DNA of 52,121 nt from the NCBI GenBank assembly GCA_937902925.1, contig CALFNN010000094.1, positions 1-52,121 of the forward strand. The letters run 5' to 3'. Positions 3,794 through 18,633 of this stretch are shown here, one piece after another. The DNA is from an uncultured Opitutaceae bacterium. Lineage in GTDB: Bacteria > Verrucomicrobiota > Verrucomicrobiia > Opitutales > Opitutaceae. Below the pieces are notes generated by a model. That model ran no database searches, was not told the origin of the DNA, and worked only from the letters and a program-made list of their open reading frames with translations. The stretch's first letter is position 1; every line of letters begins with the position of its first letter. A program made the position numbers and the translations under genes.

Positions 3794-3932
3794 CAGCCTT
3801 CTCTCGTTGAACTGTCCGAAAGCGTAGGCTTTCCCTCCGGTCGCGCCGCCCGGATAGTGTCACGGCGCATCCCGCAGCTTTCGCCCGTCCCCTGCGTCAG
3901 GCTGCCGGTCGCGTCGTCCCCTCCCCACTCCC

Positions 3933-5222
3933 GTGCCCGTTCCCGGCAAATTCCTTCTCTGGTCCGCCGTCTTCCTCGCCAGCTTCGCGCCGCGCGTTCT
4001 CGGCGCCGCCGAACCGCCCACCGAGTGGATCGACCCCGACACCGGCCATCGCATCGTCCGCCTCTCGCGCGAGCCGGAAAGCGCGAGCCTTTATTTCCAC
4101 CAAAATCCCTTCACGCCCGAGGGCGACAAGATGGTCTTCGCCACGCCCTCCGGCCTGTCGATGATCGATCTCAAGACCCACGAGATCAAACTCGTCGTGC
4201 CGGGCCTGAAGTATCGCGTGCAAAGCAGCGGCGGCGTCGAGGTCGGCCACAAGACCCGCCACGTTTACTACGACAAGGACGGCGCGATCTGGTCGACCGA
4301 TCTCGATACGCTGGCCACGCACGAGCTCGCCAAACTCCCACCCAACGCCTCGATGTCCGCCATCAACGCCGACGAAACTCTCGCCGTCGGCCTGCGCTAT
4401 GAAGGCGACCGCCCGGAAGGCGCCATCGGCTGGCCCGCGCCCGGCACGGTGATGCGCGCTCCGGACGGCCATGAACTCACCTTTGCCGAGCAGCGCGAGG
4501 TTCTGCTCAACAACCGCCTCAACCAGCGCGTCCCGATGAGCCTCTTCACGGTCGATCTCCGCGACGGCAAAATCGTGACCTTCAACCACACCACCGACTG
4601 GCTCGGCCACGTGCAGTTTTCCCCGACCGATCCCGGCCTCGTCATGTTCTGCCACGAGGGCCCGTGGCACATGGTCGACCGGCTCTGGTCCATCCGCACC
4701 GACGGCACCGGCCTCACCAAGCTCCACACGCGCACCATGAACATGGAGATCGCCGGCCATGAATTTTTCGCGCCCGACGGCAAGTCGATGTGGTATGACC
4801 TGCAGACGCCGCGCGGCGTCGACTTCTGGGTCGCCGGCTACGAGTTCGCGACCGGCAAGCGCACCTGGTATCACCTCGATCGCAACGAGTGGTCCGTCCA
4901 TTTCAACATCTCCCCCGACGGCAAACTCTTCGCGGGCGATGGTGGCGATTCCGAGATGGTCGCGCATGCGCCCGACGGCAAATGGCTCTACCTCTTCCAC
5001 CCCGAGCGCGTGCCCGACGTCGCCGGCATCAGGAATCCCGACTCCGGCGGCCTGGTCGATGCCGGCGTCTTCCGCGCCGAGCGCCTCGTCAACATGGCGA
5101 AACACAACTACCAACTCGAACCCAACGTCCACTTCACGCCCGATATGAAATGGATCGTCTTCCGCTCGAACATGCACGGCCCGATGCACGTCTACGCCGT
5201 GGAAATCGCCAAAGCCCGCTGA
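3933..5222 (+). CDS. Exported oligogalacturonate lyase-like protein (PL22), copy 1
   Basis: The 429-residue product belongs to the oligogalacturonate lyase (PL22) beta-propeller family, which cleaves unsaturated or saturated digalacturonate by beta-elimination with a divalent metal. Family landmarks are TEWIDPDTGHRIVRLS near the N-terminus, FSPTDPGLVMFCHEGPWH and MEIAGHEFF in the middle, and a Gln/His-containing QLEPNVHFTPD near the C-terminus; the conserved His/Gln residues are the expected catalytic and metal ligands. It starts at a GTG immediately before a signal peptide (KFLLWSAVFLASFAPRVLGA). Characterised PL22 enzymes are largely cytoplasmic, so predicted export is unusual. A second copy with a long insert lies at 13497-14936. 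Whether this copy is active is not shown. Confidence 0.88.
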   Translation: MPVPGKFLLWSAVFLASFAPRVLGAAEPPTEWIDPDTGHRIVRLSREPESASLYFHQNPFTPEGDKMVFATPSGLSMIDLKTHEIKLVVPGLKYRVQSSGGVEVGHKTRHVYYDKDGAIWSTDLDTLATHELAKLPPNASMSAINADETLAVGLRYEGDRPEGAIGWPAPGTVMRAPDGHELTFAEQREVLLNNRLNQRVPMSLFTVDLRDGKIVTFNHTTDWLGHVQFSPTDPGLVMFCHEGPWHMVDRLWSIRTDGTGLTKLHTRTMNMEIAGHEFFAPDGKSMWYDLQTPRGVDFWVAGYEFATGKRTWYHLDRNEWSVHFNISPDGKLFAGDGGDSEMVAHAPDGKWLYLFHPERVPDVAGIRNPDSGGLVDAGVFRAERLVNMAKHNYQLEPNVHFTPDMKWIVFRSNMHGPMHVYAVEIAKAR

Positions 5223-5276
5223 CCATCGCACTTTCGCTTCGACTGCCTATCCGTTCACCCGCAACCAGAAATCCCA

Positions 5277-6044
5277 ATGAAGAAATTAATCCTCCCCTCG
5301 CTCGCCGCGGTCTTCGCCGTGGCGATTTCGCACGCCGCGCCGTCCGACGACGTTTCCGCGGCCGCCAAGAAACTCGCCGATGCCGCCAACTATACCTGGA
5401 GCCGCACGACCGAAAACGCCGGCGGTGGCGGCAGCCGTGGCGGATTCGGCGGCGGCCCGATGACCGGAATGACCGAGAAAGACGGCTATACGATCACGAC
5501 TCGCCAGGGCCAGAACGGCTCGCTGTCCACGGTGCGCAAGGGCGATTCGTTCGCCACGCAGAATTTCCAGAGTGGTGAGTGGATGTCCGCGGAAGAGATG
5601 CGCCAGCAATTCGCCGGCCGGGGAGGTGGCGGCGGTGGTGGTGGTGGCGCCGGTGGCGGTCGCGGCCGCGGTGGATTCGGCTTTGGCGGCGGCAATCAGA
5701 TGAATCCCGCCGAGGAAGTCGCCGCGCTCGTCAAGGAGGCGAAGGACCTGAAGTCCGCCGACGGCGCGATTTCGGGCGACTTGACCGACGAGGCGGTTGC
5801 CGCGCGTCTCAGCTTCGGCGGCCGCGGTGGCCAGGCTCCCGCCGCGCCGAAAAACGCCATGGGCTCGGTCAAGTTCTGGGTCAAGGACGGCATGATCGCC
5901 AAATACGAGGTGCACGTGAAAGGCACCGTCGCCGGTCGCAACGGTGAGATGGAGCGCGACACGACCACAACCACCGAGATCAAGGATGTCGGCACGACCA
6001 AGGTCGAGGTGCCGGACGGTGCGAAGAAAAAACTCGGTGCGTAA
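5277..6044 (+). CDS. Exported Gly-rich protein of unknown function
   Basis: 255 residues with a signal peptide (MKKLILPSLAAVFAVAISHA). Two glycine/arginine-rich low-complexity stretches interrupt it, a short one near residues 48-60 and a long one near residues 114-140 with runs of Gly and GRGRGG. The C-terminal part (about residues 195-255) reads like a beta sheet, with FWVKDGMIAKYEVHVKG and an EVPDGAKKK ending, a pattern resembling LolA/LppX-fold proteins; that resemblance is only by eye. It lies 54 bases after the first PL22 gene and 80 before the first esterase gene, so it probably shares their transcript. I assign no function. Confidence 0.75.
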   Translation: MKKLILPSLAAVFAVAISHAAPSDDVSAAAKKLADAANYTWSRTTENAGGGGSRGGFGGGPMTGMTEKDGYTITTRQGQNGSLSTVRKGDSFATQNFQSGEWMSAEEMRQQFAGRGGGGGGGGGAGGGRGRGGFGFGGGNQMNPAEEVAALVKEAKDLKSADGAISGDLTDEAVAARLSFGGRGGQAPAAPKNAMGSVKFWVKDGMIAKYEVHVKGTVAGRNGEMERDTTTTTEIKDVGTTKVEVPDGAKKKLGA

Positions 6045-6124
6045 GCCCGCGGTTTGTCGTTAGGTTTTTGCCGCCCGGCAGCGCATTGGTCGCGCTGCCG
6101 GCGGTCTTGCTTTCCCCGCCCCCA

Positions 6125-7030
6125 ATGAAAACTCCCGCCGTTGCCCTGCTCCTCATCGCCGTCGCGTTCGCGCGTCTGTCGGCCGCCGACTACTCGGCCG
6201 CCGCCCAAAAACTCCTCGCTGCGAATCCCGAACCTGTCGTCCCGCTCTGGCCCAACGGCGCGCCCGGCTCCGAAGCGCGCAAGGACGAGCCCGAGAAGGT
6301 CGTCGGCAACAGCGTTTCGAACATCCATTTTCCCACGCTGACGATTTTTCTTCCCGCCAAGGACACCGCCACCGGCGTCGCCGTCGTCGTGTGCCCCGGC
6401 GGCGGCCACCGGAATCTCGTCATGCAAAAGGAGGGCTACGACATCGCGAAGTGGCTCGCCAGCCATGGCATCGCCGGCTTCGTCCTGAAGAACCGCCTCG
6501 CGAACGACGACGCCACTCCGGCCGGCACCCCGCAACCCTACACGGTCGAGCGTGACGCCCTCGCCGATGCGCAGCGCGCCATCCGCCTCATCCGCAGCCG
6601 TGCCGCCGAGTGGGGCGTCAATCCCGCCAACGTCGGCATCATGGGTTTTTCCGCCGGTGGCGAAGTCACCGCCGTCGCCGCCATGCATCCCGACGCCGGC
6701 AATCCTTCCGCGCCCGATCCCATCGATCGCCTCGATGCGCGTCCCGCGTTTCAAGGTCTCATCTATCCCGGTCAGGCGCAGAAGATCAAACCCGAGAAGG
6801 GCGCGCCGCCGGCGTTTCTCGCCTGCGGCGCCGACGACCGTCCCGATATTTCCGAAGGCGTGCCACGGGCCTACCTGCTCTTCAAGCAGGCGGGCGTGCC
6901 CGTCGAGATGCACGTCTATGCCGGCGTCGGCCACGGCTTCGGCCTTCGCCCCGGTCCCGCCCATGGCTGGCCCGATCGGTTTCGCGAATGGCTCGTGAAC
7001 CAGAAATTCATCGCGGCCCCCGCGCCCTGA
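6125..7030 (+). CDS. Exported alpha/beta-hydrolase, acetyl xylan esterase-like, copy 1
   Basis: 301 residues from the ATG at 6125, preferred over an upstream in-frame start because it opens a signal peptide (MKTPAVALLLIAVAFARLSA). It is a serine alpha/beta-hydrolase of the acetyl xylan esterase/BD-FAE type. Landmarks are PLWPNGAPGSEA near the N-terminus, the oxyanion-hole segment CPGGGH, the nucleophile elbow GFSAGG (Ser176), an Asp in ACGADDRPD and a His in GVGHGFG near the C-terminus. It is the first of three tandem paralogs with 9- and 4-base gaps, and likely deacetylates plant cell-wall oligosaccharides. Substrate is inferred from context with CE12 and PL22 genes. Confidence 0.87.
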   Translation: MKTPAVALLLIAVAFARLSAADYSAAAQKLLAANPEPVVPLWPNGAPGSEARKDEPEKVVGNSVSNIHFPTLTIFLPAKDTATGVAVVVCPGGGHRNLVMQKEGYDIAKWLASHGIAGFVLKNRLANDDATPAGTPQPYTVERDALADAQRAIRLIRSRAAEWGVNPANVGIMGFSAGGEVTAVAAMHPDAGNPSAPDPIDRLDARPAFQGLIYPGQAQKIKPEKGAPPAFLACGADDRPDISEGVPRAYLLFKQAGVPVEMHVYAGVGHGFGLRPGPAHGWPDRFREWLVNQKFIAAPAP

Positions 7031-7039
7031 CTCCCCGCC

Positions 7040-7927
7040 ATGCCTCGCGTCAGATTCATTCCGGTCCTCGCCGTCGCGCTGGCATTGACGGCGAACGCGT
7101 TCGCGGCAGACGCGCATCCAGTCGTGTCGCTCTGGCCCGATGGCGCGCCGGGTTCCGCGGCCCGCCGCGCCGAAGCCGAGCACGTCGCCGCCAACGGCGC
7201 GGTCTCGAACATCCACAATCCCACGCTCACCGTTTATCTGCCTTCGCGGGAAACCGCCACCGGCGCCGCCGTCGTCATCGCGCCCGGCGGCGCGCATCGT
7301 TTTCTCACGATCGCGAGCGAGGGCTACAACGTCGGCCAGTGGCTCGCCGCCCACGGCATCGCCGGCTTCGTGCTGAAATACCGGCTCGCCCACGACGACT
7401 CCAATCCCGCCGGCACCCCGCAGCCCTACACCATCGAGGGCGACGCCCTCGCCGACGCCCAGCGCGCCATCCGTCTCATTCGCAGCCGTGCCACCGAGTG
7501 GCACGTTAATCCCGCCGCCGTTGGCATCCTCGGGTTTTCCGCGGGCGGCGAGGTGGCCGCGCTCGCCGCGATGCGTCCCGCGCCCGGCCAACCCGGCGCC
7601 ACCGATCCCATCGAGCGGGAAAACTCCCGGCCCGATTTTCAAGCGCTGGTTTATCCCGGCCAGTCCGGAAAAATTCTTCCCGCCAAGGATTCACCGCCCG
7701 CGTTCCTCGCTTGCGGCGCCAATGACCGTCCCGACATCGCCGAGGGCCTGCCAGCGGTTTACCTGCGATTCAAAGAGGCCGGTGTCCCTGTCGAAATCCA
7801 CATCTTCGCCGGCGTCGGCCATGGCTTCGGTTACCGTCCGGAGCGGCCCTCCGGATCGAGCAGCTGGCCGGAATGCTTCCGCGATTTTCTCGCCTTCCGA
7901 AAATTCCTGTCCGCCCCGACCCCCTGA
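7040..7927 (+). CDS. Exported alpha/beta-hydrolase, acetyl xylan esterase-like, copy 2
   Basis: 295 residues, closely similar to the preceding gene along its whole length. A signal peptide (RFIPVLAVALALTANAFA) is followed by SLWPDGAPGS, the oxyanion segment APGGAH, the elbow GFSAGG with Ser167, ACGANDRPD with the acid residue, and GVGHGFGYRP with the catalytic His. It begins only 9 bases after copy 1, so translational coupling is likely. The oxyanion motif differs slightly (GGAH rather than GGGH). I infer a tandem duplicate acting on a related acetylated or feruloylated substrate; specificity cannot be read from sequence. Confidence 0.87.
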   Translation: MPRVRFIPVLAVALALTANAFAADAHPVVSLWPDGAPGSAARRAEAEHVAANGAVSNIHNPTLTVYLPSRETATGAAVVIAPGGAHRFLTIASEGYNVGQWLAAHGIAGFVLKYRLAHDDSNPAGTPQPYTIEGDALADAQRAIRLIRSRATEWHVNPAAVGILGFSAGGEVAALAAMRPAPGQPGATDPIERENSRPDFQALVYPGQSGKILPAKDSPPAFLACGANDRPDIAEGLPAVYLRFKEAGVPVEIHIFAGVGHGFGYRPERPSGSSSWPECFRDFLAFRKFLSAPTP

Positions 7928-7931
7928 TCCC

Positions 7932-8933
7932 ATGCCCCCAAAATCCATCCTCGCCCGCTGCGCAATCTTCCTCACCGCGATGTCCGCCTCGAGCCTGTCG
8001 AACAACCTTCCCGCCGCCCCCGTCTTCGTGCCGGTGTTGCCGAGCAACACGGTGCCCAACGGCCCGGCGATCCCGACGACTCCCGCCACCGAGTCCGCGC
8101 ATCCGGCGTCGATTCCGCTCTGGCCCGAGGGCGCGCCCGGTTCGGAAGCCCGCAAGGACGAGCCCGAGCAAATCAGCTACCGCCAGGAAGCCGACATCGT
8201 CTTTCCGATCGTCTTCAACATCCAGAATCCGTCGATCACGCCGTTCCTCCCGGCTAAGGATAAGGCAACCGGCTGCGCCGTGATCATCGCGCCCGGCGGC
8301 GGCCACATGTTTCACACGATCGATCGCGAGGGCTACGACGTCGCCCGCTGGCTCGCGGACCGCGGCATTGCCGCCTTCGTCCTGAAATACCGGCTCGCCC
8401 GCGACGCCGCCAACATGGCCAGCGGCAAGCCGCAGCCGTATCGCACCGAAAAGGAGCCGCGCGCCGACGCGCTCCGCGCCGTCCGCCTCATCCGCAGCCG
8501 CGCCGCCGAGTGGGGCCTCAACCCCGATCACATCGGCATCCTCGGCTTCTCCGCCGGCGGCGTCCCGGCGTTCGCCGCCGCACTCCTGTTCGATGCGGGC
8601 AACCCCGCCGCCACCGACCCGGTCGAGCGCCAGAGTTCCCGCGCCGATTTTCACGCGATGATCTACGCCGAACTTCCGCGCGGCGACTACGAGGTGCCGA
8701 AGAACGCCCCGCCCGGCTTCCTCCTCGCCGCCTACGACGACTCGCCCAAGGCCGCGCCGCTCGCGAATTATCTCTTGAAACTCAAGACCGCCGGCATTCC
8801 CGCGGAGCTTCACATCTACACCCACGGCGGCCACGGGTTCGGCGTCCGCGGCGACCGGCCGAACCTGCCGATCTCGAGCTGGCCTTTCCGTTTCGAGGAA
8901 TGGCTCGGTGACATCGGCATGTTGAAAAAGTGA
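7932..8933 (+). CDS. Exported alpha/beta-hydrolase, acetyl xylan esterase-like, copy 3 (divergent)
   Basis: 333 residues from the ATG at 7932, 4 bases after copy 2; this start gives an N-terminal hydrophobic export segment and removes a long overlap with copy 2. It has a Pro/Thr/Asn-rich linker near residues 35-60 that the other copies lack, then the shared core: PLWPEGAPGSEARKDEPE, APGGGH, elbow GFSAGG (Ser207), a changed acid region (AAYDDSPK instead of ACGADDRP) and HGGHGFG. The final segment SSWPFRFEEWL matches copy 2. It is the most divergent of the three, which suggests a changed substrate pocket. The stop is 23 bases before the preferred start of the cytochrome gene. Confidence 0.85.
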   Translation: MPPKSILARCAIFLTAMSASSLSNNLPAAPVFVPVLPSNTVPNGPAIPTTPATESAHPASIPLWPEGAPGSEARKDEPEQISYRQEADIVFPIVFNIQNPSITPFLPAKDKATGCAVIIAPGGGHMFHTIDREGYDVARWLADRGIAAFVLKYRLARDAANMASGKPQPYRTEKEPRADALRAVRLIRSRAAEWGLNPDHIGILGFSAGGVPAFAAALLFDAGNPAATDPVERQSSRADFHAMIYAELPRGDYEVPKNAPPGFLLAAYDDSPKAAPLANYLLKLKTAGIPAELHIYTHGGHGFGVRGDRPNLPISSWPFRFEEWLGDIGMLKK

Positions 8934-8956
8934 TCGTGACTCGCGCGCTTCACTTC

Positions 8957-11935
8957 ATGCGACTCCGTCCCTTCCTGCTGTCCTCGCTTGGTGCCGCCGC
9001 CCTCGTGTCGCAGCCTGCGGTGGCGGCCGAGCCGGCCGCCGTCACGAAGGGTCCGTCGTTCGAGCAGGACATCGCGCCGCTGCTCCAGACCTATTGCTAC
9101 GACTGCCACGGCGATGGCGCGCACAAGGCCGACGTTGCGCTCGACGCCTACGCTAACGCCGCCGACGTCCGCGCCGGCCGCAAGACGTGGGAGCAGGTCC
9201 TCAACAACGTCACGCATTACGTGATGCCGCCCGACGACGGTGGCCCGCTCCCCACGCAGCCCGAGCGCGAGCGCATCGCCGAGTTCATCGAGCGCGAGCT
9301 CTACCAGCTCGACCCGGCGCACCCCGACCCGGGCCGCGTCACGCTCCGCCGCCTCAACCGCGCGGAATACAACAACGCCGTCCGCGATCTCGTCGGCGTC
9401 GATTTCAAGCCCGCCGCGGATTTTCCGCCCGACGATTCCGGCTATGGCTTCGACAACATCGGCGACGTTCTCTCGCTGCCGCCGGTGCTGATGGAAAAAT
9501 ACCTCGCCGCCGCGGACAAGATTCTCGACCAGGCGATCGTCACCGATCCGATCCAGAGCCGCACGCAGCGGATTCCCGCGAGCCTCACCCAGATCGGTTT
9601 CAACGCCCTCGGCGACCGCGGCGACGGCTGGGTTCATCTCATCAGCCTCGAGGAGGACGACATCGCCGCCGAACTCCCCATCGCCGCCGCCGGCGATTAC
9701 GTCGTGCGTTTCCAGGCCTACGCGACGAAAACGGGCGGGGCGCTCGTCGGCCAGGGCAGCGAGAAGCCGCTCGATTTCGATTCCGATCCGGGTCCGACCC
9801 GCGTCGCCCTTCTGCTCAACGACGCCGTCATCCAAAGCTTCGTCGTCGGCACCGACGAGGCGCATCCGCAGGTCTACGAGGCGCGCCTCGGCGTGCCGGC
9901 CGGCAAGCAGCGCTTCCGCGCCGCCGTTCTCCGCAACCGCGGCGGGGCCGACGAACTCTTCATGCTCAACGGCCGCCTCGGCAAACAGCAGCCCGGCGTC
10001 GTCTTCGTGAAATGGATCGAGGTCGAGGGGCCGCTCCCCGCCGCCACGCGGCGGTGGCCGGCCGCGTCGCTGACCGCAACCGGCGAGGCTCGCGTCCAGC
10101 CCGACGGCGCTCGCTTCTTCGAGCACAATGGCGAAGTCACCACCACGATCGACGCCGCGCACGAGGGCGAATTCATCCTGCGCGCCCAGGCCTACGCCCA
10201 GCAGGCCGGTGCCGAGGCGACACGGATGGAATTCCGCGTCGACGGCCAGCCGGTCAAATCGTTCGACGTGCTCGCGCCCGCCACGATGCAACCGGTCGAG
10301 GGCCAGCGGGTGTTCTCGCTCATGCTGCTCGTGCCCCGGCCGCAGGTTTACGAGACCCGCGTGAAGCTCGCGCCCGGCCGGCACGAATTCGCCGCCGCCT
10401 TCGTCAACGACTTCGAGGACCCGAAGAGCGAAAACCCGAACCTCCGCGACCGGAATCTCATCATCCAAAACCTCGAGGTCGCCGATCTCTCCGCTCCGGT
10501 CCTGCCTCCCGCGGTGCCGCCGGCCCTCGACGAACTCTTTGCGCGACACCAGAGCGAGGCCACCGACACGGCGGCCCGCGGCATCGTCGGCGATTTCGCC
10601 CGCCGCGCCTGGCGCCGACCGCTCGCGTCCACCGAACTCGACCGGCTGATGAAACTTTACGCGCTCGCGCGGCAGCAGGGCGATAGCTTCGCCGGCGGCG
10701 TAAAGCTCGCCCTCAAGGCCGCGCTCGTTTCCCCGCAGTTTCTCTTCATCGGCGACCTCGACTCCCCGGCCGTGGCGGCGCTCGCCAAATCCGGCGTTCG
10801 CGCCCCGCCGGTCGCCCCGCAAAACCAGCCGGCCGGATTGCGCACCGTCCCGCTGGACGATTTCGCGCTCGCCACGCGCCTCTCGTTCTTCCTGTGGAGT
10901 TCCGTCCCCGATGACGAACTGCTCAACCTCGCGGAACAACACAAACTTCGCCCGCAGCTCGCCGCCCAGGTCCGCCGGCTGCTCGCGTCGCCCAAGGCCC
11001 ACGCCCTCGTCGACAACTTCGCCGGACAGTGGCTGCAGATCCGCAGCCTCGAGACCATGCAGCCGGACAACACGCTCTTCCCCGACTACGACGCCAGCCT
11101 CCGCGCGGCGATGCAGCGCGAGACCGAGTTGTTTTTCGAGCACGTGATGCGCGAGGATTGCAGCGTGTTCGATTTCCTCACCGGCGACTACACGTTCGTC
11201 AACGAGCGCCTCGCCAGGTTCTACGGCCTGCCCGGGGTGCGCGGCGCCGACTTCCAGAAGGTCTCGCTCGCCGGGACCCCGCGACGCGGCGTGCTCACCC
11301 AAGCCAGCGTGCTCACCCTCACCTCCAATCCGACCCGCACCTCTCCCGTGAAGCGCGGCAAATGGGTTTTGGAAAACCTCCTCGGCACCCCGCCCCCGCC
11401 ACCGCCGCCGAATGTCCCCGAGCTCGACGACAAGTCGCGCCAGCTCACCGGCACGCTCCGCCAGCAGATGGAGCAGCACCGCGCGAATCCCGTTTGCGCC
11501 TCCTGCCATGAGCGGATGGACCCGATCGGCTTCGGTCTCGAAAATTTCAACGCGATCGGCGCCTGGCGCGACAAGGAGGGCGATGCACCCATCGACGCCT
11601 CGGGCAAGCTCGTCGGCGACGACGAGTTCGCCGGCGCCTCCGACCTCGCCGCCCTGCTCGCCCGCAAGCGCTCTGACGAGTTCCGCCGCTGCCTCGCCGA
11701 GAAAATGCTCACCTACGGCCTCGGGCGCGGCGTCGAGTATTACGACCGGCCGGCCGTCGACCAGATCGTCCAGCGGCTGCAGGCCGGCGGGGACAAATTC
11801 TCCGCGCTGATCCTCGCGGTCGCCGAGAGCTTTCCGTTCGGCAACCGTCGCGCGGATGATTCGCCCGCCGCGATGACTCGCGCGGAGGACACTTCCAATC
11901 CCACGCCCACAAACTCCGCCGTCGCCACGCGCTGA
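8957..11935 (+). CDS. Exported DUF1592/DUF1588/DUF1585 protein with c-type haem motifs
   Basis: 992 residues from the ATG at 8957. GTG codons at 8930 and 8936 are also in frame, but the ATG opens a signal peptide (MRLRPFLLSSLGAAALVSQPAVAA). A planctomycete-type cytochrome c domain carries the haem-binding motif CYDCH (Cys47, Cys50, His51). DUF1587 follows (LRRLNRAEYNNAVRDLVG), then a long beta-rich middle, DUF1595/DUF1592, DUF1588 (SNPTRTSPVKRGKWVLENLLGT and a proline run) and DUF1585. A second CxxCH (CASCH, Cys847-His851) lies between them. This family is abundant in Planctomycetes and Verrucomicrobia, is exported, and its reaction is not established. It is followed by its usual partner, a DUF1552 gene. 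Its position inside an esterase and lyase array suggests a redox role with carbohydrate substrates, which is inference. Confidence 0.9.
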   Translation: MRLRPFLLSSLGAAALVSQPAVAAEPAAVTKGPSFEQDIAPLLQTYCYDCHGDGAHKADVALDAYANAADVRAGRKTWEQVLNNVTHYVMPPDDGGPLPTQPERERIAEFIERELYQLDPAHPDPGRVTLRRLNRAEYNNAVRDLVGVDFKPAADFPPDDSGYGFDNIGDVLSLPPVLMEKYLAAADKILDQAIVTDPIQSRTQRIPASLTQIGFNALGDRGDGWVHLISLEEDDIAAELPIAAAGDYVVRFQAYATKTGGALVGQGSEKPLDFDSDPGPTRVALLLNDAVIQSFVVGTDEAHPQVYEARLGVPAGKQRFRAAVLRNRGGADELFMLNGRLGKQQPGVVFVKWIEVEGPLPAATRRWPAASLTATGEARVQPDGARFFEHNGEVTTTIDAAHEGEFILRAQAYAQQAGAEATRMEFRVDGQPVKSFDVLAPATMQPVEGQRVFSLMLLVPRPQVYETRVKLAPGRHEFAAAFVNDFEDPKSENPNLRDRNLIIQNLEVADLSAPVLPPAVPPALDELFARHQSEATDTAARGIVGDFARRAWRRPLASTELDRLMKLYALARQQGDSFAGGVKLALKAALVSPQFLFIGDLDSPAVAALAKSGVRAPPVAPQNQPAGLRTVPLDDFALATRLSFFLWSSVPDDELLNLAEQHKLRPQLAAQVRRLLASPKAHALVDNFAGQWLQIRSLETMQPDNTLFPDYDASLRAAMQRETELFFEHVMREDCSVFDFLTGDYTFVNERLARFYGLPGVRGADFQKVSLAGTPRRGVLTQASVLTLTSNPTRTSPVKRGKWVLENLLGTPPPPPPPNVPELDDKSRQLTGTLRQQMEQHRANPVCASCHERMDPIGFGLENFNAIGAWRDKEGDAPIDASGKLVGDDEFAGASDLAALLARKRSDEFRRCLAEKMLTYGLGRGVEYYDRPAVDQIVQRLQAGGDKFSALILAVAESFPFGNRRADDSPAAMTRAEDTSNPTPTNSAVATR

Positions 11936-12018
11936 CTGTCCGGTGCTCCGTCCGTTGTCTCTCCGGTCGCCCCTCGCACTTTGAAATCGCCCGCCCGAGT
12001 TCCCCACCCCGCTGACTC

Positions 12019-13389
12019 ATGAGTAATTCCTGGCAGATTCCCCGCCGCACCTTTTTGCGTGGACTCGGCACGGCGGTCGCGCTTCCCGTGCTCGACGCCA
12101 TGCTTCCACCCAAGGCGCTCGCGGCCGTCGGCGGCCCGGGCTCGGCGCCGGCTTTTCCGAAACGTGTCGCGTGGATCTACGTCCCGAACGGCAAGAACAT
12201 GGCCGACTGGACGCCGCAGCTCGTCGGCGAGAACTACGATCTGCCGATGATCCTCGAGCCGCTCGCGCGCCACCAGCGCGACTTGTCGCTCATCACCGGC
12301 CTCGCCATCGATCCGGCGAACGCCCATGGCGACGGCGGCGGCGACCACGCGCGTTCCGGCGGCGCTTTCCTCACCGGCTGTCATCCGCGCAAGACCGCCG
12401 GCGCCGACATCAAGGCCGGCATCTCCGTCGATCAGATCGCCGCGAAACAGATCGGCGACCAGACGCGGCTGCCCTCGCTGGAGTTGAGTTGCGACGGCGG
12501 CCAGCGCGCCGGTTCCTGCGATTCGGGCTACAGTTGCGCCTACCAGTTCAATCTTTCGTGGCGTTCCGAGACCCAGCCGATGAATCCCGAGGTCGACCCG
12601 CGCGCCGCGTTCGAGCGTCTCTTCGGCAACGGTGACGCCGCCGCCAGCCTCGAGGCCGCCGCCCGCCGCGCGCTCTACCGCAAGAGCGTCCTCGACTACA
12701 TCCTCGACGACGCGCACGGCCTCGAGCGCCAGCTCGGTGCCAACGACCGCCGCAAGCTCGACGAATACCTCACCGCTGTCCGCGAGATCGAGCGCCGCGT
12801 CGAGCGCGCGGAAAAGTTCGGCCTCGCGCAGGTGCCCGCGGGCACGACGCCGCCGGAAATGTTCGAGAACTACGAGGAACAGGTCCGGCTGATGTTCGAC
12901 ATCCTCACGCTTGCGTTCCAGACGGACAGCACGCGCATCTCGACCTTCATCGTCGCCCACGACGGCAGCAACCGCCCCTACCCGTTCATCGGCATCCGCG
13001 AGGGCCACCACGATCTCTCGCACCACCGCAACGACGAGGCCAAGAAGACCAAGCTCGCCCAGATCAACCGGTTTCACACGACCCAGTTCGCGTATTTCCT
13101 CGACCGCTTGAAATCCATCCGCGAGGGCGAAGGCACGCTGCTCGACAACTGCTCCATCCTCTACGGCAGCGCCATCAGCAACGGCAACGAGCACATTCAC
13201 GAAAACCTCCCCATCCTCGTCGCCGGTCGCGGCGGCGGCGCTGTCAACCCCGGCCGCCACGTGCGCGTCGACGACAAGACGCCGGTCACGAACCTCTACC
13301 GCTCGATGCTCGATACCGTCGGCGTGCACACCGAGAAGATCGGCGACAGCACGGGCAAGCTCGACGCCCTGTTTACGCCGGCCGTCTGA
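12019..13389 (+). CDS. DUF1552 Tat-exported protein
   Basis: 456 residues. The N-terminus carries a twin-arginine signal (PRRTFLRGLGTAVALPVLDA), so the protein is probably exported folded, perhaps with a cofactor. The remainder matches DUF1552: WIYVPNGKNMADWTP, the HARSGGAFLTG segment, DQIAAKQIG, and a C-terminal HDGSNRPYPFIGIREGHHDLSHH region with several histidines that could bind metal. Families of this type are distantly related to alkaline phosphatase or sulfatase-like DUF1501 proteins, but no activity is established. It lies 83 bases downstream of the DUF1592 cytochrome, the usual arrangement in related genomes, so the two products likely work together in the periplasm. Confidence 0.9.
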   Translation: MSNSWQIPRRTFLRGLGTAVALPVLDAMLPPKALAAVGGPGSAPAFPKRVAWIYVPNGKNMADWTPQLVGENYDLPMILEPLARHQRDLSLITGLAIDPANAHGDGGGDHARSGGAFLTGCHPRKTAGADIKAGISVDQIAAKQIGDQTRLPSLELSCDGGQRAGSCDSGYSCAYQFNLSWRSETQPMNPEVDPRAAFERLFGNGDAAASLEAAARRALYRKSVLDYILDDAHGLERQLGANDRRKLDEYLTAVREIERRVERAEKFGLAQVPAGTTPPEMFENYEEQVRLMFDILTLAFQTDSTRISTFIVAHDGSNRPYPFIGIREGHHDLSHHRNDEAKKTKLAQINRFHTTQFAYFLDRLKSIREGEGTLLDNCSILYGSAISNGNEHIHENLPILVAGRGGGAVNPGRHVRVDDKTPVTNLYRSMLDTVGVHTEKIGDSTGKLDALFTPAV

Positions 13390-13395
13390 CCGTCC

Positions 13396-13411
13396 GGCCG
13401 GATCGCCGGCC
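13396..13411. repeat. Intergenic hairpin after the DUF1552 gene
   Basis: A perfect 6-bp stem (GGCCGG / CCGGCC) with loop ATCG begins 6 bases after the DUF1552 stop codon. No T-run follows, so it is not a classical terminator. It may stabilise mRNA 3' ends or mark a weak transcription boundary before the second PL22 gene. Confidence 0.4.
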
Positions 13412-13496
13412 TTCCGCGCCCGGGTTCGCGCAACTTTCAACGCCATGGCGCGACTGTCTTGAGCACCGGCGGTTGTCCGCCGCGTCCCTTCCCCCC

Positions 13497-14936
13497 ATGC
13501 CAAATCTACCCCGTCTCCTCCTGTTCGCCCTCGCCGCACTCCCCGTCTTCGCCGCCGAGGAAGCCACGACCAAGCCGGCCACCCCGGCGCCCACCGACTG
13601 GATCGACCCCGACACCGGCCACCGCGTCATCCAGCTCGATTCCGAGCCGGGCAGCTCGACACTCTATTTTCACGACAACTCTTATACGCCCGAGGGCGAC
13701 AAGCTGATCTTCAGCTCCCCCAGCGGCGTCACGATGCTCGACATCACCAAGCTCGGCACCGAGGCGCCCAAGCCCGAGGTGATCGCGCCGAACAGCGGTG
13801 GCGGTTACGCAGCGCGCCGCACGCGCGAGATCTATTTCAGCCGCGGCGGCGGTGGTGGTGGACGCGGACCTCGCGGCGGCGCACCCGGAGCCGCCGCAGG
13901 CGCTCCGACCGCGTCCGCTCCCGGCAATGCGCCGGCGGCCGCTCCCGGCGCGGCGGCCGCCCCCGGCGGCAGGCGCGGCGGTCGCGGCGGCGGCGGGGGC
14001 TTTGGCGGCGGTGAGGTTTACGCCTACAACGTCGACACCAAGGAAATCCGCCGCGTGCCCAACGCGACCCGCACCCTCATCAACGCCGACGAGACGTTCA
14101 CCGTTGCCACCGTCAATCAGGAGGACCCCAGCGGCAAGACCCCGAAGCCGCCCGAGCGCCCGATCGTGCCGCAACTCAGCCGGATGTTTCCCGGCAAGAC
14201 GATGGAGGAACTCACGCCCGATCAGCGCTACGCCGTGCAAAAGGAGGACGGCCTCTCGCGCCGCGTCTTCAATCCCGCATCCGAGGCCTTCATCTTCACG
14301 AATCTCAAGACCGGCGAGAAAAACACCGTCGGTTACCAATACGGCTGGCTCAACCACATGCAGTTCTCGCCGACCGATCCGAACCTCATGCTCTATTGTC
14401 ACGAGGGCACGTGGCACGAGGTCGACCGCATCTGGACCATCCGGACGGACGGCAGCGAGATGACGCTACGCCACAAGCGCACGATGGACATGGAAATCGC
14501 CGGCCACGAGTTCTGGAGCTACGATGGCCGGACGATCTGGTTCGATTTGCAGACGCCGCGCAGCCAGCACATGTGGATCGGCGGGGTGAATCTCGATACC
14601 GGCAAGGAGACCCGCTACCATCTCCGCCTCAACTGGTGGTCCGTCCACTACAATGTCTCGCGCGACAACACGCTCTTCTGCGGCGACGGCGGCGACCCGA
14701 CGCAAGTCGCGTTCGCGCCCGACGGCATGTGGATCAATCTGTTTCGCGTGCAGCCCGACGGCACCGTTGCACGCGAGCAACTCGTCAACATGAAGAAGCA
14801 CAATTACGTCACCGGCCAGGGCGGCATCGAACCCAACAGCTCCATCACGCCGGATAAGAAGTGGGTCGTTTTCTCCGGCAACATGTTTAGCGAGCGTCAC
14901 GTTTACGCCGTGGAAATCGCCAAGGCCAAGTCCTGA
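13497..14936 (+). CDS. Exported oligogalacturonate lyase-like protein (PL22), copy 2, with Gly/Ala-rich insert
   Basis: 479 residues from the ATG at 13497; an in-frame TTG lies 24 bases upstream but the ATG opens the signal peptide (MPNLPRLLLFALAALPVFAA). The PL22 landmarks match copy 1: DWIDPDTGHRVIQL, FSPTDPNLMLYCHEGTWH, MEIAGHEFW, FDLQTPRSQHMW and a C-terminal SSITPDKKWVVFSGN. The Gln/His ligand segment near the C-terminus reads GGIEPNSSITPD here, so the Gln and His seen in copy 1 are altered. About 58 residues of Gly/Arg then Ala/Pro low-complexity sequence (residues about 116-174) interrupt the second blade. It lies 8 bases before a CE12 gene. Activity is doubtful given the changed residues. 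Confidence 0.86.
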   Translation: MPNLPRLLLFALAALPVFAAEEATTKPATPAPTDWIDPDTGHRVIQLDSEPGSSTLYFHDNSYTPEGDKLIFSSPSGVTMLDITKLGTEAPKPEVIAPNSGGGYAARRTREIYFSRGGGGGGRGPRGGAPGAAAGAPTASAPGNAPAAAPGAAAAPGGRRGGRGGGGGFGGGEVYAYNVDTKEIRRVPNATRTLINADETFTVATVNQEDPSGKTPKPPERPIVPQLSRMFPGKTMEELTPDQRYAVQKEDGLSRRVFNPASEAFIFTNLKTGEKNTVGYQYGWLNHMQFSPTDPNLMLYCHEGTWHEVDRIWTIRTDGSEMTLRHKRTMDMEIAGHEFWSYDGRTIWFDLQTPRSQHMWIGGVNLDTGKETRYHLRLNWWSVHYNVSRDNTLFCGDGGDPTQVAFAPDGMWINLFRVQPDGTVAREQLVNMKKHNYVTGQGGIEPNSSITPDKKWVVFSGNMFSERHVYAVEIAKAKS

Positions 14937-14944
14937 GCGCCGCC

Positions 14945-16300
14945 ATGGTCCGCCCCACGCGCCGCCTCGCTCTCCTCGGGATCGCCGCCATCGCCGCGCT
15001 GTCTCCCGTGCGCGGCGCGGATCCCGCGCCGCCGACGTCGTTCAAATTCGATTTTGGCTCCGGGGCCGTCGCACCCGGCTATACGGCGGTTACGCCCGAT
15101 CTCGCCTACAGCGATGCGCGCGGATTTGGCTTCGAGCCCGGCCCGCCCGCGACCGCCGTCGACCGCGGCGGCGATCCGCTCCGCGGCGATTTCATCACGA
15201 GCGACCGGCCGTTTCTGTTTTCCGTCAAGGTCCCCGAGGGCAACTACCGCGTGACCGTCACGCTCGGCGACTCCGGCGGCGAATCGCTCACGACGATCAA
15301 GGCTGAGTCGCGCCGCCTGATGGTGGAAAAGCTCGCGACCGCCGCGGGCCAGTTCCAGACGGCCGTCTTCACGGTCAATGTGCGCAACGCCAAGGTCCCG
15401 CCGCCCCCGCTCAACGCCCCGGGCAACGATCACGTCGAGCTCAACAACCGCGAGGACGGACCAAACGGCCTCGTCTATCACTGGGACGACAAACTCACCC
15501 TCGAGTTCAACAACACCCGTCCCTGCGTCTGCGCCGTCGAGCTCACGAAGGTCGACGATGCCATCACCGTCTTCATCGCCGGCGATTCGACCGTGACCGA
15601 TCAGCCGCGGCCGCCGGGCAACAGTTGGGGCCAGATGCTCACCCGGTTTTTCAAACCCGAAGTCGCGATCGCCAATCACGCCGAGTCCGGCGAGACACTG
15701 AAGTCGTTCATCACCGAACTGCGCCTCGACAAACTGCTCAGCCAGATGAAGCGGGGCGACTACCTCCTCGTGCAATTCGGCCACAACGACGAAAAGGCGA
15801 GCTGGCCGCAGACCTACGTCGAGGCGAACACCACCTACAAGGCTTACCTCCGCGTCTTCATCGCCGAGGCCCGCCGGCGCGGCGCGATCCCCGTGCTGTG
15901 CTCTCCCGTCCAGCGCCGGATGTTCGACGCCAACGGCAAGATTCGGAATTCCCATGGCGACTATCCGGCCGCCGTGCGCAATGTCGCGAAAGAGGAAAAC
16001 GTCGCCTTCATCGACCTTGCCGCGCTCAGCGCCCGATTCTACGAGGCGCTCGGTCCGCAGAAGTCGCCACTTGCCTTCAGCGGCGTCGGCGACCGCCGCG
16101 ACGCCACGCATCATGACAACTACGGCAGCTACGAGATCGCGAAGTGCGTTGTCCAAGGGATCAAGGACAACCATCTCGATCTCGCCAAATATATCGTCGA
16201 CGATTTTGCCGGCTTCGATCCTTCGCATCCCGACGACGTCGACACTTGGAGCATCCCTGTCAGCCTCGGCCGGATGACGCAGGCGCCCCGCGGCAATTAG
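14945..16300 (+). CDS. Exported rhamnogalacturonan acetylesterase (CE12, SGNH), copy 1
   Basis: 451 residues with a signal peptide (RRLALLGIAAIAALSPVRGA). About residues 35-200 form a galactose-binding-like beta-sandwich of the beta-agarase/YXIM-esterase type (FKFDFGSG, GNYRVTVTLGD, LTLEFNNTRPCV). The SGNH hydrolase follows with all four blocks: GDST (Ser215), the NHAESGET Gly block, QFGHND, and the DATHHDNYGSYE Asp-His block. This is the CE12 layout of rhamnogalacturonan acetylesterases, which remove acetyl groups from rhamnogalacturonan I. It starts 8 bases after the second PL22 gene, implying co-transcription. A paralog with the same two-domain layout follows. Confidence 0.92.
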   Translation: MVRPTRRLALLGIAAIAALSPVRGADPAPPTSFKFDFGSGAVAPGYTAVTPDLAYSDARGFGFEPGPPATAVDRGGDPLRGDFITSDRPFLFSVKVPEGNYRVTVTLGDSGGESLTTIKAESRRLMVEKLATAAGQFQTAVFTVNVRNAKVPPPPLNAPGNDHVELNNREDGPNGLVYHWDDKLTLEFNNTRPCVCAVELTKVDDAITVFIAGDSTVTDQPRPPGNSWGQMLTRFFKPEVAIANHAESGETLKSFITELRLDKLLSQMKRGDYLLVQFGHNDEKASWPQTYVEANTTYKAYLRVFIAEARRRGAIPVLCSPVQRRMFDANGKIRNSHGDYPAAVRNVAKEENVAFIDLAALSARFYEALGPQKSPLAFSGVGDRRDATHHDNYGSYEIAKCVVQGIKDNHLDLAKYIVDDFAGFDPSHPDDVDTWSIPVSLGRMTQAPRGN

Positions 16301-16301
16301 C

Positions 16302-16321
16302 CCGGGCGGATTTGCGCCCGG
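16302..16321. repeat. Intergenic hairpin between the two CE12 genes
   Basis: A perfect 7-bp stem (CCGGGCG / CGCCCGG) with a 6-base loop directly follows the first CE12 stop codon. No U-tract follows. It may protect the 3' end of the upstream message or partly attenuate transcription into the second CE12 gene. Confidence 0.4.
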
Positions 16322-16351
16322 CCCGTTCGCATCGTCCATTCGGTCATCATC

Positions 16352-17638
16352 ATGAAATCCATTTTAGTCGTCGCCTTCGTTGCCCTGACGCTCGCCGCGC
16401 GCGCCGCCGATTCCGCCCCACTCCGCTTTGCCTTTGGCTCCGCGCCCGCCGCCGGTTTCACCGCGGTCGCGCCGGACATGAACTACAACAAGGAGCGCGG
16501 CTTCGGGTTCGAACCCGACGCCGCCGTGGTCGCCAACCCCCACGGCATCAGCAGCGACCAGCCGTTCTACTTTTCCGCCCGCGTCCCCGCCGAGGGCAAC
16601 TATCGCGTGACTGTGACCGTCGGCGATCCGCAGTCGGAGAGCACCACCACCATCAAGGCCGAGCTTCGCCGGCTCATGGTCGAAAAAATTCACACCGGCG
16701 CCGGGAAGTTCGCGACGGTCAGCTTCATCGTGAATACCCGCACGCCGCACATCGCCGCCACCGGCGACATCAAGGCGGGCGAAGTCCGGCTGAAATCTCC
16801 TCGCGAAAGCACCATGGAGGCCTGGGCGTGGGACGACGCCCTCACGCTCGAGTTCAACAACTCCCATCCCGCCGTCTCGACTATCGAGATCGCCAGGGTC
16901 GACGTGCCCACGGTTTTTCTCATCGGCGATTCGACGGTCTGCGACCAGCCGCGCGAACCGTATTCGAGCTGGGGCCAGTCGCTCACAAGGTTTTTCAAGC
17001 CCGACATCGCGATCGCGAACCACGGCGAGTCCGGTGAAACCTATCGCGACTCCATCGGCCGCCGCCGCCTCGACAAGATGCTCAGCGTGATGAAACCGGG
17101 CGATTACATGGTCATGCAGTTCGGCCACAACGACCAGAAGGAGCGCGGCCCGGGCATGGGGCCGTTCCTCAATTACAAGGCGGAGATCAAGGTTCACGTC
17201 GACGCCGTCCGCGCGCACGGCGGCACGCCGGTCATCGTCTCGCCGATGGAGCGCCGCAATTACAACCCCGACGGGACGTTCCGGCCGACGCTGGCCGACT
17301 ATGCCGAGGCGGCGCGTCAGGCGGCACAGGAACTCGGCGTGGCGTTCATCGATCTCAACGCGATGAGCATGCGGTTCTACGGCGCTCTCGGCAAGGACCA
17401 GGCCTACCTCGCCTTCGCCGGCACCGGCCTCCAGCGCGACGCCACGCACCACGACAACTACGGCAGCTACGAACTCGCGAAGTGCATTGCGGAGGGCATC
17501 CGCGACAATCACCTCCCGCTCGCCCGCCACCTTGTCGACGATTTCACTGGCTTCGACCCCGCGCATCCGGACGATGTCGACACCTTCGCGTTGCCGCCGA
17601 GTCCCCAGTTCACAAATCAGCGTCCCCTCGGCGACTGA
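16352..17638 (+). CDS. Exported rhamnogalacturonan acetylesterase (CE12, SGNH), copy 2
   Basis: 428 residues, a tandem paralog of the preceding gene. Signal peptide MKSILVVAFVALTLAARA, then the galactose-binding-like domain (FAFGSAPAAGFTAVAPD, GNYRVTVTVGD, LTLEFNNSHPAV), then the SGNH esterase with GDST (Ser194), NHGESGET, QFGHND and DATHHDNYGSYE. The two copies differ mainly in the domain linker and the middle of the hydrolase, as expected for duplicates that split substrates or positions (O-2 versus O-3 acetyls of galacturonate is one possibility, not shown). It is followed 15 bases later by the GH43-like gene. Confidence 0.92.
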   Translation: MKSILVVAFVALTLAARAADSAPLRFAFGSAPAAGFTAVAPDMNYNKERGFGFEPDAAVVANPHGISSDQPFYFSARVPAEGNYRVTVTVGDPQSESTTTIKAELRRLMVEKIHTGAGKFATVSFIVNTRTPHIAATGDIKAGEVRLKSPRESTMEAWAWDDALTLEFNNSHPAVSTIEIARVDVPTVFLIGDSTVCDQPREPYSSWGQSLTRFFKPDIAIANHGESGETYRDSIGRRRLDKMLSVMKPGDYMVMQFGHNDQKERGPGMGPFLNYKAEIKVHVDAVRAHGGTPVIVSPMERRNYNPDGTFRPTLADYAEAARQAAQELGVAFIDLNAMSMRFYGALGKDQAYLAFAGTGLQRDATHHDNYGSYELAKCIAEGIRDNHLPLARHLVDDFTGFDPAHPDDVDTFALPPSPQFTNQRPLGD

Positions 17639-17653
17639 ATTTAGCCAACCCTG

Positions 17654-18622
17654 ATGCACCCCCTCCGTCTCGTTTGCCTCGCCGCCGGCACTGCGCTCGC
17701 CGCCCACGCCGCCGATACCGCCTATCTCTTCACCTACTTTACCAAGAACGGCGAAGACGGCCTGCACCTCGCGTGGAGCGCCGACGGCTACAAGTGGGAA
17801 AAGCTCAATGACGGCAAAAGCTTCCTCGCACCCACGGTCGGCCGCTCGAAGCTCATGCGCGACCCGTGCGTCGTCTGCGGAGCCGACGGAACGTTTCGCA
17901 TGGTGTGGACTTCCGGTTGGAACGAAAACGACATCGGCTATGCCTCGACCCGGGATTTCATCACCTGGTCCCCGGAACAGGAAATTCCCGTGATGGCGTC
18001 CGAGCCGACCGTGCGCAACTCCTGGGCGCCGGAGATTCACTACGACGAAAAACGCTCTGAGTTCATCATTTTCTGGGCCTCGACGATTCCCGGCAAATTC
18101 ACCGAAACCGCCGGCGCGTCCGAGAGCGACTACAACCACCGGATCTACTTCACGACCACGAAGGACTTCGAGACCTTCGCGCCGACGAAACTTTTCTACG
18201 ATCCCGGCTTCAGCGTGATCGACGCCACCTTCCTGCACGCCGACGGCCACCACTATCTCATCGTCAAGGACGAGACGCGCAACCCGCCGAAGAAATACCT
18301 GCAGATCGCCGAGTGCGACGACCTGCAGGGCCCGTTCGGCCGGCTGTCGCCGCCGTTCACGCCGCCGGGCCTGTGGTCCGAGGGACCGACGGCGATCAAG
18401 ATCGGCGGCGACTACCTCGTTTATTTCGACGCCTATACCGCCCACCACTACGCCGCGATGTGCTCGCGCGACCTCAAGACGTGGGAGGACGTGACGGCGA
18501 AGATGAGTTTCCCCGACGAGGGCACGCCGGTTCGCCTGCGCCATGGCACCGTGATCGCCGTGCCTGCCGCTCTCGTGGCGAAATTGCGCGACCGGCCGGC
18601 CTCCTCCGCGACGGCGCACTGA
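17654..18622 (+). CDS. Exported GH43-like five-bladed propeller glycosidase
   Basis: 322 residues with a signal peptide (RLVCLAAGTALAAHA). The sequence reads as a five-bladed beta-propeller of the GH43/GH117/GH130 type: blade repeats TYFTKNGEDGLHLAWSADG, KLMRDPCVVCGADGTFRMVW, SWAPEIHYDEKRSEFIIFW, VIDATFLHADGHHYLIVKD and EGPTAIKIGGDYLVYFDAY. The RDP Asp, the Asp of IDATF and the Glu of EGPTA are placed like the catalytic trio of GH43 arabinofuranosidases/galactosidases. No accessory module is visible. Family membership is likely; substrate (arabinan or galactan side chains of rhamnogalacturonan is the contextual guess) is inference. Confidence 0.82.
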   Translation: MHPLRLVCLAAGTALAAHAADTAYLFTYFTKNGEDGLHLAWSADGYKWEKLNDGKSFLAPTVGRSKLMRDPCVVCGADGTFRMVWTSGWNENDIGYASTRDFITWSPEQEIPVMASEPTVRNSWAPEIHYDEKRSEFIIFWASTIPGKFTETAGASESDYNHRIYFTTTKDFETFAPTKLFYDPGFSVIDATFLHADGHHYLIVKDETRNPPKKYLQIAECDDLQGPFGRLSPPFTPPGLWSEGPTAIKIGGDYLVYFDAYTAHHYAAMCSRDLKTWEDVTAKMSFPDEGTPVRLRHGTVIAVPAALVAKLRDRPASSATAH

Positions 18623-18633
18623 ACCTTCGCCCG

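Follow-up and report, generated by a model that had tools for sequence, protein, structure and literature searches.

We describe a pair of adjacent genes in the window, a 52,121-nucleotide stretch that is contig C94 of the 6.0-Mb draft genome of an uncultured Opitutaceae bacterium. Both genes lie on the forward strand; the first (8957..11935) encodes a DUF1592-family dihaem cytochrome of 992 amino acids (aa) and the second (12019..13389) a DUF1552, or HXXSHH, protein of 456 aa with a twin-arginine translocation (Tat)-type signal. We tentatively propose, as a serious possibility and not as a settled assignment, that the pair is one exported, cytochrome-coupled enzyme with a histidine-bound metal that oxidises a periplasmic sugar, here pectin fragments. 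The proposal is supported by the nearly obligate pairing of the two genes, the invariant histidines of DUF1552, a carbohydrate-binding module (CBM)-like fold in the cytochrome, a conserved gene cassette around the pair, a sister system built alike, and the growth phenotype reported for the related cytochrome Cbp2D. Pairing, fold, residue conservation, haem motifs, and cassette conservation are results or predictions of the programs that we used.

Pfam assigned the second protein to HXXSHH/DUF1552 (PF07586) over the whole profile (positions 1 to 307 of 307; E 3.8e-105; 352 bits against a cut-off of 30), and at an E value of 0.001 no NCBIfam family matched either this protein or its partner. Its N terminus, MSNSWQIPRRTFLRG, is of the Tat type as judged by eye. 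A Tat-type motif is present in 110 of 143 DUF1552 sequences, and the source genome has one TatC. The earlier note on this DNA had described a Tat-exported partner with a His-rich segment, and that segment is GHHDLSHH at aa 329 to 336 (HDLSHH codons, aa 331 to 336, at 13009..13026). H110, D138, D226, H331, H335, and G403 are invariant in all 143 sequences, and H392 (13192..13194) is His in 141.

The AlphaFold model of DUF1552, built with 60 aligned relatives (59 of the 61 listed proteins plus the window's own), had a mean pLDDT (predicted local distance difference test score) of 87.2 and a pTM (predicted template modelling score) of 0.89. Foldseek gave a single PDB match with an E value below 0.001, its best, to a carrageenan sulfatase (E 9.8e-4). 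With VIA-align, residues 44 to 456 gave a Z score of 17.9 to ENPP7 (251 aligned residues, root mean square deviation [rmsd] of 3.5 angstrom), tied with the sulfatases 7stt (Z 17.6) and 9hh3 (Z 17.3). DUF1552 is thus predicted to adopt the fold of the alkaline-phosphatase/sulfatase superfamily. The DUF1552 profile found only chance matches among PDB sequences; compared with a sulfatase profile it gave an E value of 4.4e-4, and a joint profile of DUF1552 and DUF1501 gave 1.1e-5 locally (85 columns) and 1.2e-8 globally (372 columns). In the joint alignment, DUF1552 GGDHARSGGAFLTG falls on sulfatase CTVCAPSRSVLMTG, which places His110 (codon 12346..12348) at the position of the formylglycine cysteine, the catalytic Cys of C-x-P-S-R in sulfatases. 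The sulfatase alignment had been selected for [CS]-x-P-[ST]-R, so that its Cys is conserved by construction. By this low-posterior alignment, DUF1552 has no C/S-x-P-x-R formylglycine precursor as in S1 sulfatases, since all 143 sequences have His there. The metal-ligand Asp of the S1 motif S-D-N-G is likewise missing; at the aligned position (A385) the five commonest residues among the 143 sequences are Gly (97), Asn (15), Ala (13), Cys (5), and Glu (4). Residue invariance, the predicted fold, and Tat export together lead us to infer that DUF1552 holds a His-bound metal.

A profile comparison over 355 columns shows homology between DUF1552 and DUF1501, with an E value of 5.8e-13 (0.0012 with an alignment of mixed subfamilies), and DUF1501 matched sulfatases over 90 columns (E 2.6e-9). 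His134 of DUF1501 occupies the DUF1552 H110 column and is His in 73 of 73 sequences. In 20 DUF1501 regions, picked by hand and not at random, a CxxCH protein adjoins DUF1501 in 18, with two motifs in 16 of those; the two partner cytochromes that we scanned read PSCyt1-PSCyt2-LamG-PSD1. As a group, the DUF1501 partners matched the DUF1592 cytochromes in hhalign with an E value of 1.5e-11, or 1.5e-13 when the N-terminal part was compared. Values from single comparisons, weak by themselves, were E 2.5e-4 for PSD4 with PSCyt2 and E 0.005 for PSD2 with PSD1. Because both the DUF1552-DUF1501 and the partner-cytochrome profiles match, both genes of the two systems are related, and by these profile comparisons DUF1592/DUF1552 and DUF1549-DUF1553/DUF1501 are two parallel systems. 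They share homologous genes, a His at the same position, and a CxxCH neighbour; DUF1549/DUF1553 (PSCyt2-PSD1) with DUF1501 differs from the window pair in a laminin-G type domain (in the two scanned), an insert located elsewhere, and the lack of an H-x3-H pair in DUF1501. Among 77 operon neighbours of DUF1592-DUF1552 pairs in named genomes, DUF1501 occurred six times, PSD1 six times, and PSCyt2 four times. At another place in the source genome (L289:6372-8030), a PSD1/PSCyt2 protein without any CxxCH stands beside DUF1501.

The domain order of the DUF1592 protein is PSCyt1-PSD3-[two beta-sandwich domains]-PSD5-PSD4-PSCyt3-PSD2, with PSD3 being DUF1587, PSD5 DUF1595, PSD4 DUF1592 (E 1.5e-46), PSCyt3 DUF1588 (E 1.3e-38), and PSD2 DUF1585. 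PSD3, PSD5, PSD4, PSCyt3, and PSD2 are all above cut-off in one chain, with CASCH in PSCyt3, which agrees with a PSCyt3-type cytochrome. By eye it has a Sec-type signal. The two CxxCH motifs lie one toward each end, as had been noted before: CYDCH (aa 47 to 51, 9095..9109) in a class I cytochrome c domain, and CASCH (aa 847 to 851, 11495..11509) in PSCyt3, about 140 residues before the C terminus. Two motifs were counted in 101 of 116 DUF1592 rows, one in 14, and three in 1. By sequence (E 1.8e-6), the N-terminal domain matches the cytochrome c subunit of a cytochrome bc1 whose structure is known, and M90 (9224-9226), a candidate ligand, is Met in 112 of 112 ungapped rows; the first haem is therefore likely to be a His/Met electron carrier. 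In 114 of 115 ungapped rows the second motif retains its haem-binding His. No Met is kept in more than 80% of the 116 rows in this second module, where Y756 (112/116), H841 (111/116), and R800 (116/116) are conserved; Y756 or H841 is a candidate axial ligand.

Between PSD3 and PSD5 the window protein has 340 residues, within a range of 94 to 421 among 54 proteins. The alignment comprised 53 listed proteins plus the window's own, with five of odd length and partial ones excluded. In the predicted model, aa 363 to 487 (10043..10417) form a beta-sandwich with a CBM35/36/6-like fold, with Z 11.4 to 2dcj (103 aligned residues, rmsd 2.0) and Z 11.3 to 2w47, a CBM35 with delta-4,5-anhydrogalacturonic acid (111 aligned residues, rmsd 2.3). 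The 20 best structural matches span Z 10 to 11.4 over 102 to 111 residues. The Foldseek and VIA results for the whole model were dominated by this part, so that the C-terminal haem module was hardly probed. No CBM was found by sequence in the PDB search. A Pfam CBM60 match (22 bits, below its cut-off of 28.2) and SUMO matches among PDB sequences were put aside as sub-threshold or chance.

The association of the two genes is not confined to the window. In the source genome, PSD4 and HXXSHH each occur five times, always as a pair, on four contigs (one HXXSHH gene is clipped by a contig edge), so that the window pair is not a chance arrangement. Of 57 genomes from the family and order, 18 contain PSD4 and 19 contain HXXSHH. 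In those 18 genomes, 113 of 123 PSD4 genes (127 raw matches, merged) have HXXSHH on the same strand within 5 kb, with DUF1592 upstream in 89 pairs and downstream in 24; three of the ten unpaired genes lie at most 1.1 kb from where a contig begins. Pairing in the order is nearly obligate. Copy numbers reach 17 PSD4 and 58 DUF1501 matches per genome, fragments included. Across several phyla, among the best 80 of 588 confirmed named DUF1552 loci, DUF1592 is adjacent in 60. A phylogeny of 88 DUF1552 proteins requires at least five changes of the unpaired state on well-supported branches, and the window protein clusters (support 100/100) with those of L127, L088, and two copies of L078. Of 104 pair regions, 60 were retrieved. 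Three related loci (L128, L137, and L139) have a gene of about 3.3 kb followed by one of about 1.2 kb upstream of the pair, and HEAT repeats occurred in 5 of the 77 scanned operon neighbours, at loci not assigned. In Planctomyces SH-PL62 (L270:5843-9927), two overlapping genes, one for DUF1587 and one for DUF1592, are annotated before DUF1552, which is either a split version or a frameshift.

A reduced form occurs in Sphingobium herbicidovorans, where a 536-residue DUF1592 protein has no PSCyt1 match and no insert and keeps the PSCyt3 module; the gene row is DUF1592, DUF1552, cytochrome c', and cytochrome b561. Because this protein lacks PSCyt1 and the insert, the PSCyt3 module and DUF1552 apparently form the core of the system, with the N-terminal cytochrome and the CBM as additions. 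In Novosphingobium KACC 22771, a DUF1592-DUF1552-ankyrin protein row lies a few kb from a molybdopterin oxidoreductase and an OprB-type carbohydrate porin. The same three-gene order is found in one copy of the source genome, and an ankyrin-repeat protein also follows DUF1552 in several relatives (46 to 73% identical). These genes are at L067:11489-12874 and L267:16307-17602, in L114, L115, L103, and L117, and as a fragment at L095:3-395; possibly the ankyrin-repeat protein is a third component of a sub-group of pairs.

In the window, the pair sits in a row of forward-strand genes. The start at ATG 8957 was picked by a codon-based choice and is also the start given in the earlier note; the full open frame is 8930-11935, and a GTG start at 8930 would give a 1001-aa form. 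With ATG 8957, 23 bases separate the cytochrome gene from the stop of the upstream esterase, and 83 bases separate it from the DUF1552 gene. GC content at third codon positions (GC3) is 0.88 to 0.89 in the two forward frames and 0.73 in a long antisense open reading frame (8816-12007), which favours the forward frames. A scan of 3600 to 19000 returned no promoter-like sites and 13 terminator-like sites, against 11.4 expected by chance, with none within the gaps flanking the DUF1552 gene. Upstream lie a PL22-like gene of the oligogalacturonate lyase family (3933..5222) and three BD-FAE/alpha-beta-hydrolase esterase genes (6125-7030, 7040-7927, and 7932-8933; the relatives have two). Downstream follow a second PL22-like gene (13497..14936), a GDSL esterase gene with an AGA-YXIM galactose-binding-like domain (14945-16300), another GDSL esterase gene (16352-17638), a GH43-like gene (17654-18622), and a GH2 gene (21199-23802). 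Judged by their families, these genes look like a cassette for pectin or rhamnogalacturonan side chains. Between the GH43-like and GH2 genes, 18634-21051 encodes a long protein whose second half contains a spermine-synthase-like domain. The placement of the pair among esterase and PL22 genes on one strand, given in the earlier note, agrees with this.

Most of the cassette recurs in the closest relatives. In an Opitutus sp. metagenome-assembled genome from Lake Baikal (L127), the order PL22/esterase/pair/PL22/GDSL is kept, at identities of 42 to 85% for the neighbours and 79% for DUF1552; no GH43-like counterpart was found in that cassette. In another genus of the same family (L078), the order is PL22/esterase/pair/esterase/pair/GDSL, with the pair duplicated and one PL22-like gene instead of two. 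The long protein is conserved behind the cassette in both. Random placement in relatives, which would have spoken against the earlier idea, is thus not what the closest relatives show. Directly behind the Baikal cassette, on the opposite strand, a second DUF1592-DUF1552 pair occupies L127:15866-18987.

In the mechanism that we propose, the DUF1592 and DUF1552 proteins would come into contact and form a single exported enzyme system. DUF1552 would be a phosphatase/sulfatase scaffold in which the nucleophile position is now H110 and the Asp ligand after the core strand has been lost, and H110, H331, H335, and H392 would together hold a single metal ion, which the protein would receive in the cytoplasm, ahead of its export by Tat. 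The DUF1592 protein would bind the sugar through its CBM35/36/6-like domain. Electrons would pass from the DUF1552 metal to the second haem (PSCyt3), then to the His/Met haem (PSCyt1), and on to the respiratory chain. The likely substrate here would be a uronic acid or neutral sugar of pectin or rhamnogalacturonan fragments, oxidised in the periplasm. A redox role is favoured by the haems and by the cytochrome c' and cytochrome b561 genes beside the Sphingobium pair. A broader version, which we consider doubtful, is that DUF1552 and DUF1501 represent one new branch of the alkaline-phosphatase superfamily in which oxidation has replaced hydrolysis, with a redox metal held by His instead of the nucleophile site, each family having co-evolved with its own homologous dihaem sugar-binding cytochrome. 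Together they would be a large class of periplasmic metallo-oxidoreductases coupled to cytochromes, occurring in at least Verrucomicrobiota, Planctomycetota, Armatimonadota, Acidobacteriota, and alphaproteobacteria.

Several observations weigh against the oxidation mechanism. The register that puts His110 on the sulfatase Cys recurs when DUF1552 is compared with sulfatases by itself, with low posterior there, and DUF1501 by itself gives a different register around the nucleophile stretch. H331-x3-H335, which we match, by eye, to the D-x3-H metal motif of phosphatases, has no equivalent pair in DUF1501. The same genomes carry DUF1800-DUF1501 pairs, and no CxxCH was seen in 22 DUF1800 rows, in which not all frames were checked. 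Three are in the source genome (G000; C10:40886-43494, C59:71130-73990, and C73:10327-13201). DUF1800-DUF1501 resembles the cytochrome pairs without their haem, and its existence means that some versions may do without haem; DUF1800 matched the pair cytochromes with pairwise E values of 0.01 to 0.04 only, so that their kinship is not significant. The 14 DUF1592 rows with a single CxxCH, some of them partial sequences, count on the same side. So do the 20 of 80 named DUF1552 loci without adjacent DUF1592 (some at a contig edge, one with DUF1592 about 6 kb away), which may mean that DUF1552 acts by itself or together with a partner encoded elsewhere. Finally, enrichment of carbohydrate genes near pairs in general is weak. 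In 18 genomes, with expectations computed from rounded genome sizes and no correction for contig edges, 6 of 150 listed sulfatases lay near a pair against 3.5 expected (P 0.14), 6 of 150 listed 3-keto-glycoside hydrolase (DUF1080) genes within 5 kb of one against 3.4 (P 0.13), and 7 of 150 listed GDSL genes near a pair against 2.8 (P 0.025, uncorrected for three families and four distances). The GDSL excess is marginal, and two of its seven cases fall in genomes with the cassette, G000 and G024. We rejected a general sulfatase link on these counts. We also rejected the 3-keto-glycoside pathway as a general link, despite the DUF1080 gene after the pair in Planctomyces SH-PL62; PF06439 occurred in 2 of 84 operon neighbours. 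The earlier suggestion of a periplasmic redox step on carbohydrate is fair, if unproven, for the window cassette, where the CBM-like fold, the haems, and the conserved order speak for it, and too narrow as a general claim in view of the weak enrichment and the Sphingobium region. Nothing links the pair to deacetylation, before or after which the earlier note had placed that step as one example.

Other explanations fit parts of the evidence. DUF1552 may still be a hydrolase or transferase, acting through metal-bound water or a covalent His110 intermediate, with the cytochrome as a substrate scaffold or redox sensor and no sugar redox at all. Known members of the alkaline-phosphatase superfamily are hydrolases, transferases, and mutases, which suits the predicted fold, and the haem-free DUF1800-DUF1501 pairs and solo DUF1552 genes point the same way. 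So do the esterases and sulfatases beside some copies: in scans of 84 of 96 near-operon neighbours (the window's own 12 left out), we found five sulfatases, five GDSL, and four SASA proteins, all three families being outside the 25 most frequent, among those listed down to single-member families, in a control of 84 of 116 distal genes. Against hydrolysis stand the universal His at the nucleophile position and the loss, mostly to Gly, of the S-D-N-G Asp, and the conserved haems and the Sphingobium cytochrome b561 would need another reason; we regard this alternative as rather unlikely. Chemistry at the second haem, peroxidase- or MauG-like, with DUF1552 positioning the substrate or maturing the complex, would account for the lack of a Met kept in over 80% of rows, the conserved Y756, H841, and R800, and the retention of PSCyt3, not PSCyt1, in the minimal Sphingobium protein, and AhpC/redoxin-like genes are present in 2 of 77 operon neighbours. 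Yet no peroxidase appeared among the listed fold and sequence results, in which the CBM-like part filled the fold search, and the residues of DUF1552 are conserved more strictly than a mere scaffold requires, so that we think it improbable.

A general role away from carbohydrates, such as surface electron transfer, stress, or aromatic compounds, with the pair hitch-hiking in the pectin cassette, draws on the five copies on four contigs of the source genome and on the Sphingobium pair. The latter has no obvious carbohydrate genes around it and lies near genes for a flavin monooxygenase, VOC, and Rieske proteins, annotations that suggest a catabolic region for other compounds. It also agrees with the lack of significant enrichment near sulfatase or DUF1080 genes, and no glycoside hydrolase family was among the 25 most frequent of the 77 neighbours in named genomes (77 of 84, seven of L127 left out). 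The CBM-like domain predicted in the cytochrome, and the survival of most of the cassette in two other genomes at 42 to 85% protein identity, with the pair duplicated in one, speak against it and leave it with a small probability. Donation of electrons to another enzyme, for example a lytic polysaccharide monooxygenase (LPMO), as proposed for Cbp2D, we consider highly improbable. The isolated CjX183 domain of Cbp2D does reduce LPMOs slowly (PMC8981238), but no LPMO_10 (AA10, PF03067) gene was found in any of the 57 genomes, source included, in a search that did not cover other LPMO families, and the X183 domains in a study of Teredinibacter did not drive LPMOs under its conditions (PMC10916295).

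In these bacteria, the genes for PSCyt/PSD cytochromes and their DUF1552 or DUF1501 partners are present in many copies and have no assigned function. The shared predicted sulfatase fold and the His at the nucleophile position in both partner families provide a concrete, testable active site, and the conserved pectin cassette provides a concrete substrate range. If the oxidation mechanism is true, a new enzyme class oxidises sugars in the periplasm and passes the electrons directly to respiration. The lasting point is the predicted fold of DUF1552 and its histidine at the nucleophile position.

Among known enzymes, DUF1552 resembles S1 sulfatases and nucleotide pyrophosphatases/phosphodiesterases in its predicted fold and in an LTG motif after the nucleophile position, and it differs from them in having His where they have a catalytic Cys or Ser and in not keeping the S-D-N-G Asp. 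We did not find the sulfatase-fold link of DUF1552 and DUF1501 stated in the parts of the open literature on these families that we consulted; it may be known in subscription papers or Pfam clan notes. A chitin-synthase study notes that DUF1501 and DUF1800 occur next to chitin synthases as pairs that have a Tat motif (PMC5122149). The window pair had been put forward as a candidate for an undescribed function. That is only half right: the pairing habit of PSCyt3-type genes and CBM fusions have been published (PMC5615132), and a growth phenotype is reported for a relative (PMC12542752). In what we saw of He et al. 2017 (PMC5615132), PSCyt2 and PSCyt3 genes of freshwater Verrucomicrobia usually adjoin two different unknown families, probably named there as DUF1552 and DUF1501. 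Some of the proteins carry CBMs, the density of their genes varies inversely with glycoside hydrolase density, and their function is called unknown, with a carbohydrate role suggested. The window cytochrome shares with those PSCyt3 proteins the kinds of PSCyt/PSD domains, one fixed neighbour family, and, in some, CBM-type domains. That account, as far as seen, gives the two neighbour families without a fold, an active-site reading, or a mutual link. Added here are the predicted sulfatase fold of DUF1552, the His at the nucleophile position, the homology to DUF1501, the two parallel systems, the CBM-like fold, and the conservation of the cassette.

Cbp2D of Cellvibrio japonicus is among the closest known counterparts of the window cytochrome. 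According to the sections seen of Branch 2021 (PMC8981238), it contains X183, DUF1587, and X132, and from this and Kakacek 2025 (PMC12542752) its parts are CBM2, X158/YceI, FN3, X183, DUF1587, and X132, listed here without regard to order. The Pfam scan of the window cytochrome at E 0.001 showed no CBM2 or YceI/X158 domain, unlike Cbp2D, and its match to X183 (7b21) was weak (E 0.67, by sequence). Cbp2D is treated together with Cbp2E, with no DUF1552 partner mentioned in the parts of the two papers that we saw. Kakacek 2025 reports there that cbp2D and cbp2E are needed for growth on insoluble cellulose. Like Cbp2D, the window protein joins DUF1587 and two CxxCH motifs in one chain (PSD3 at aa 140 to 203 and CxxCH at 56 and 856 of the 1001-aa form), and the two have in common a cytochrome c domain, DUF1587, a second CxxCH domain, a carbohydrate-binding domain (predicted from the model in the window protein), and export.

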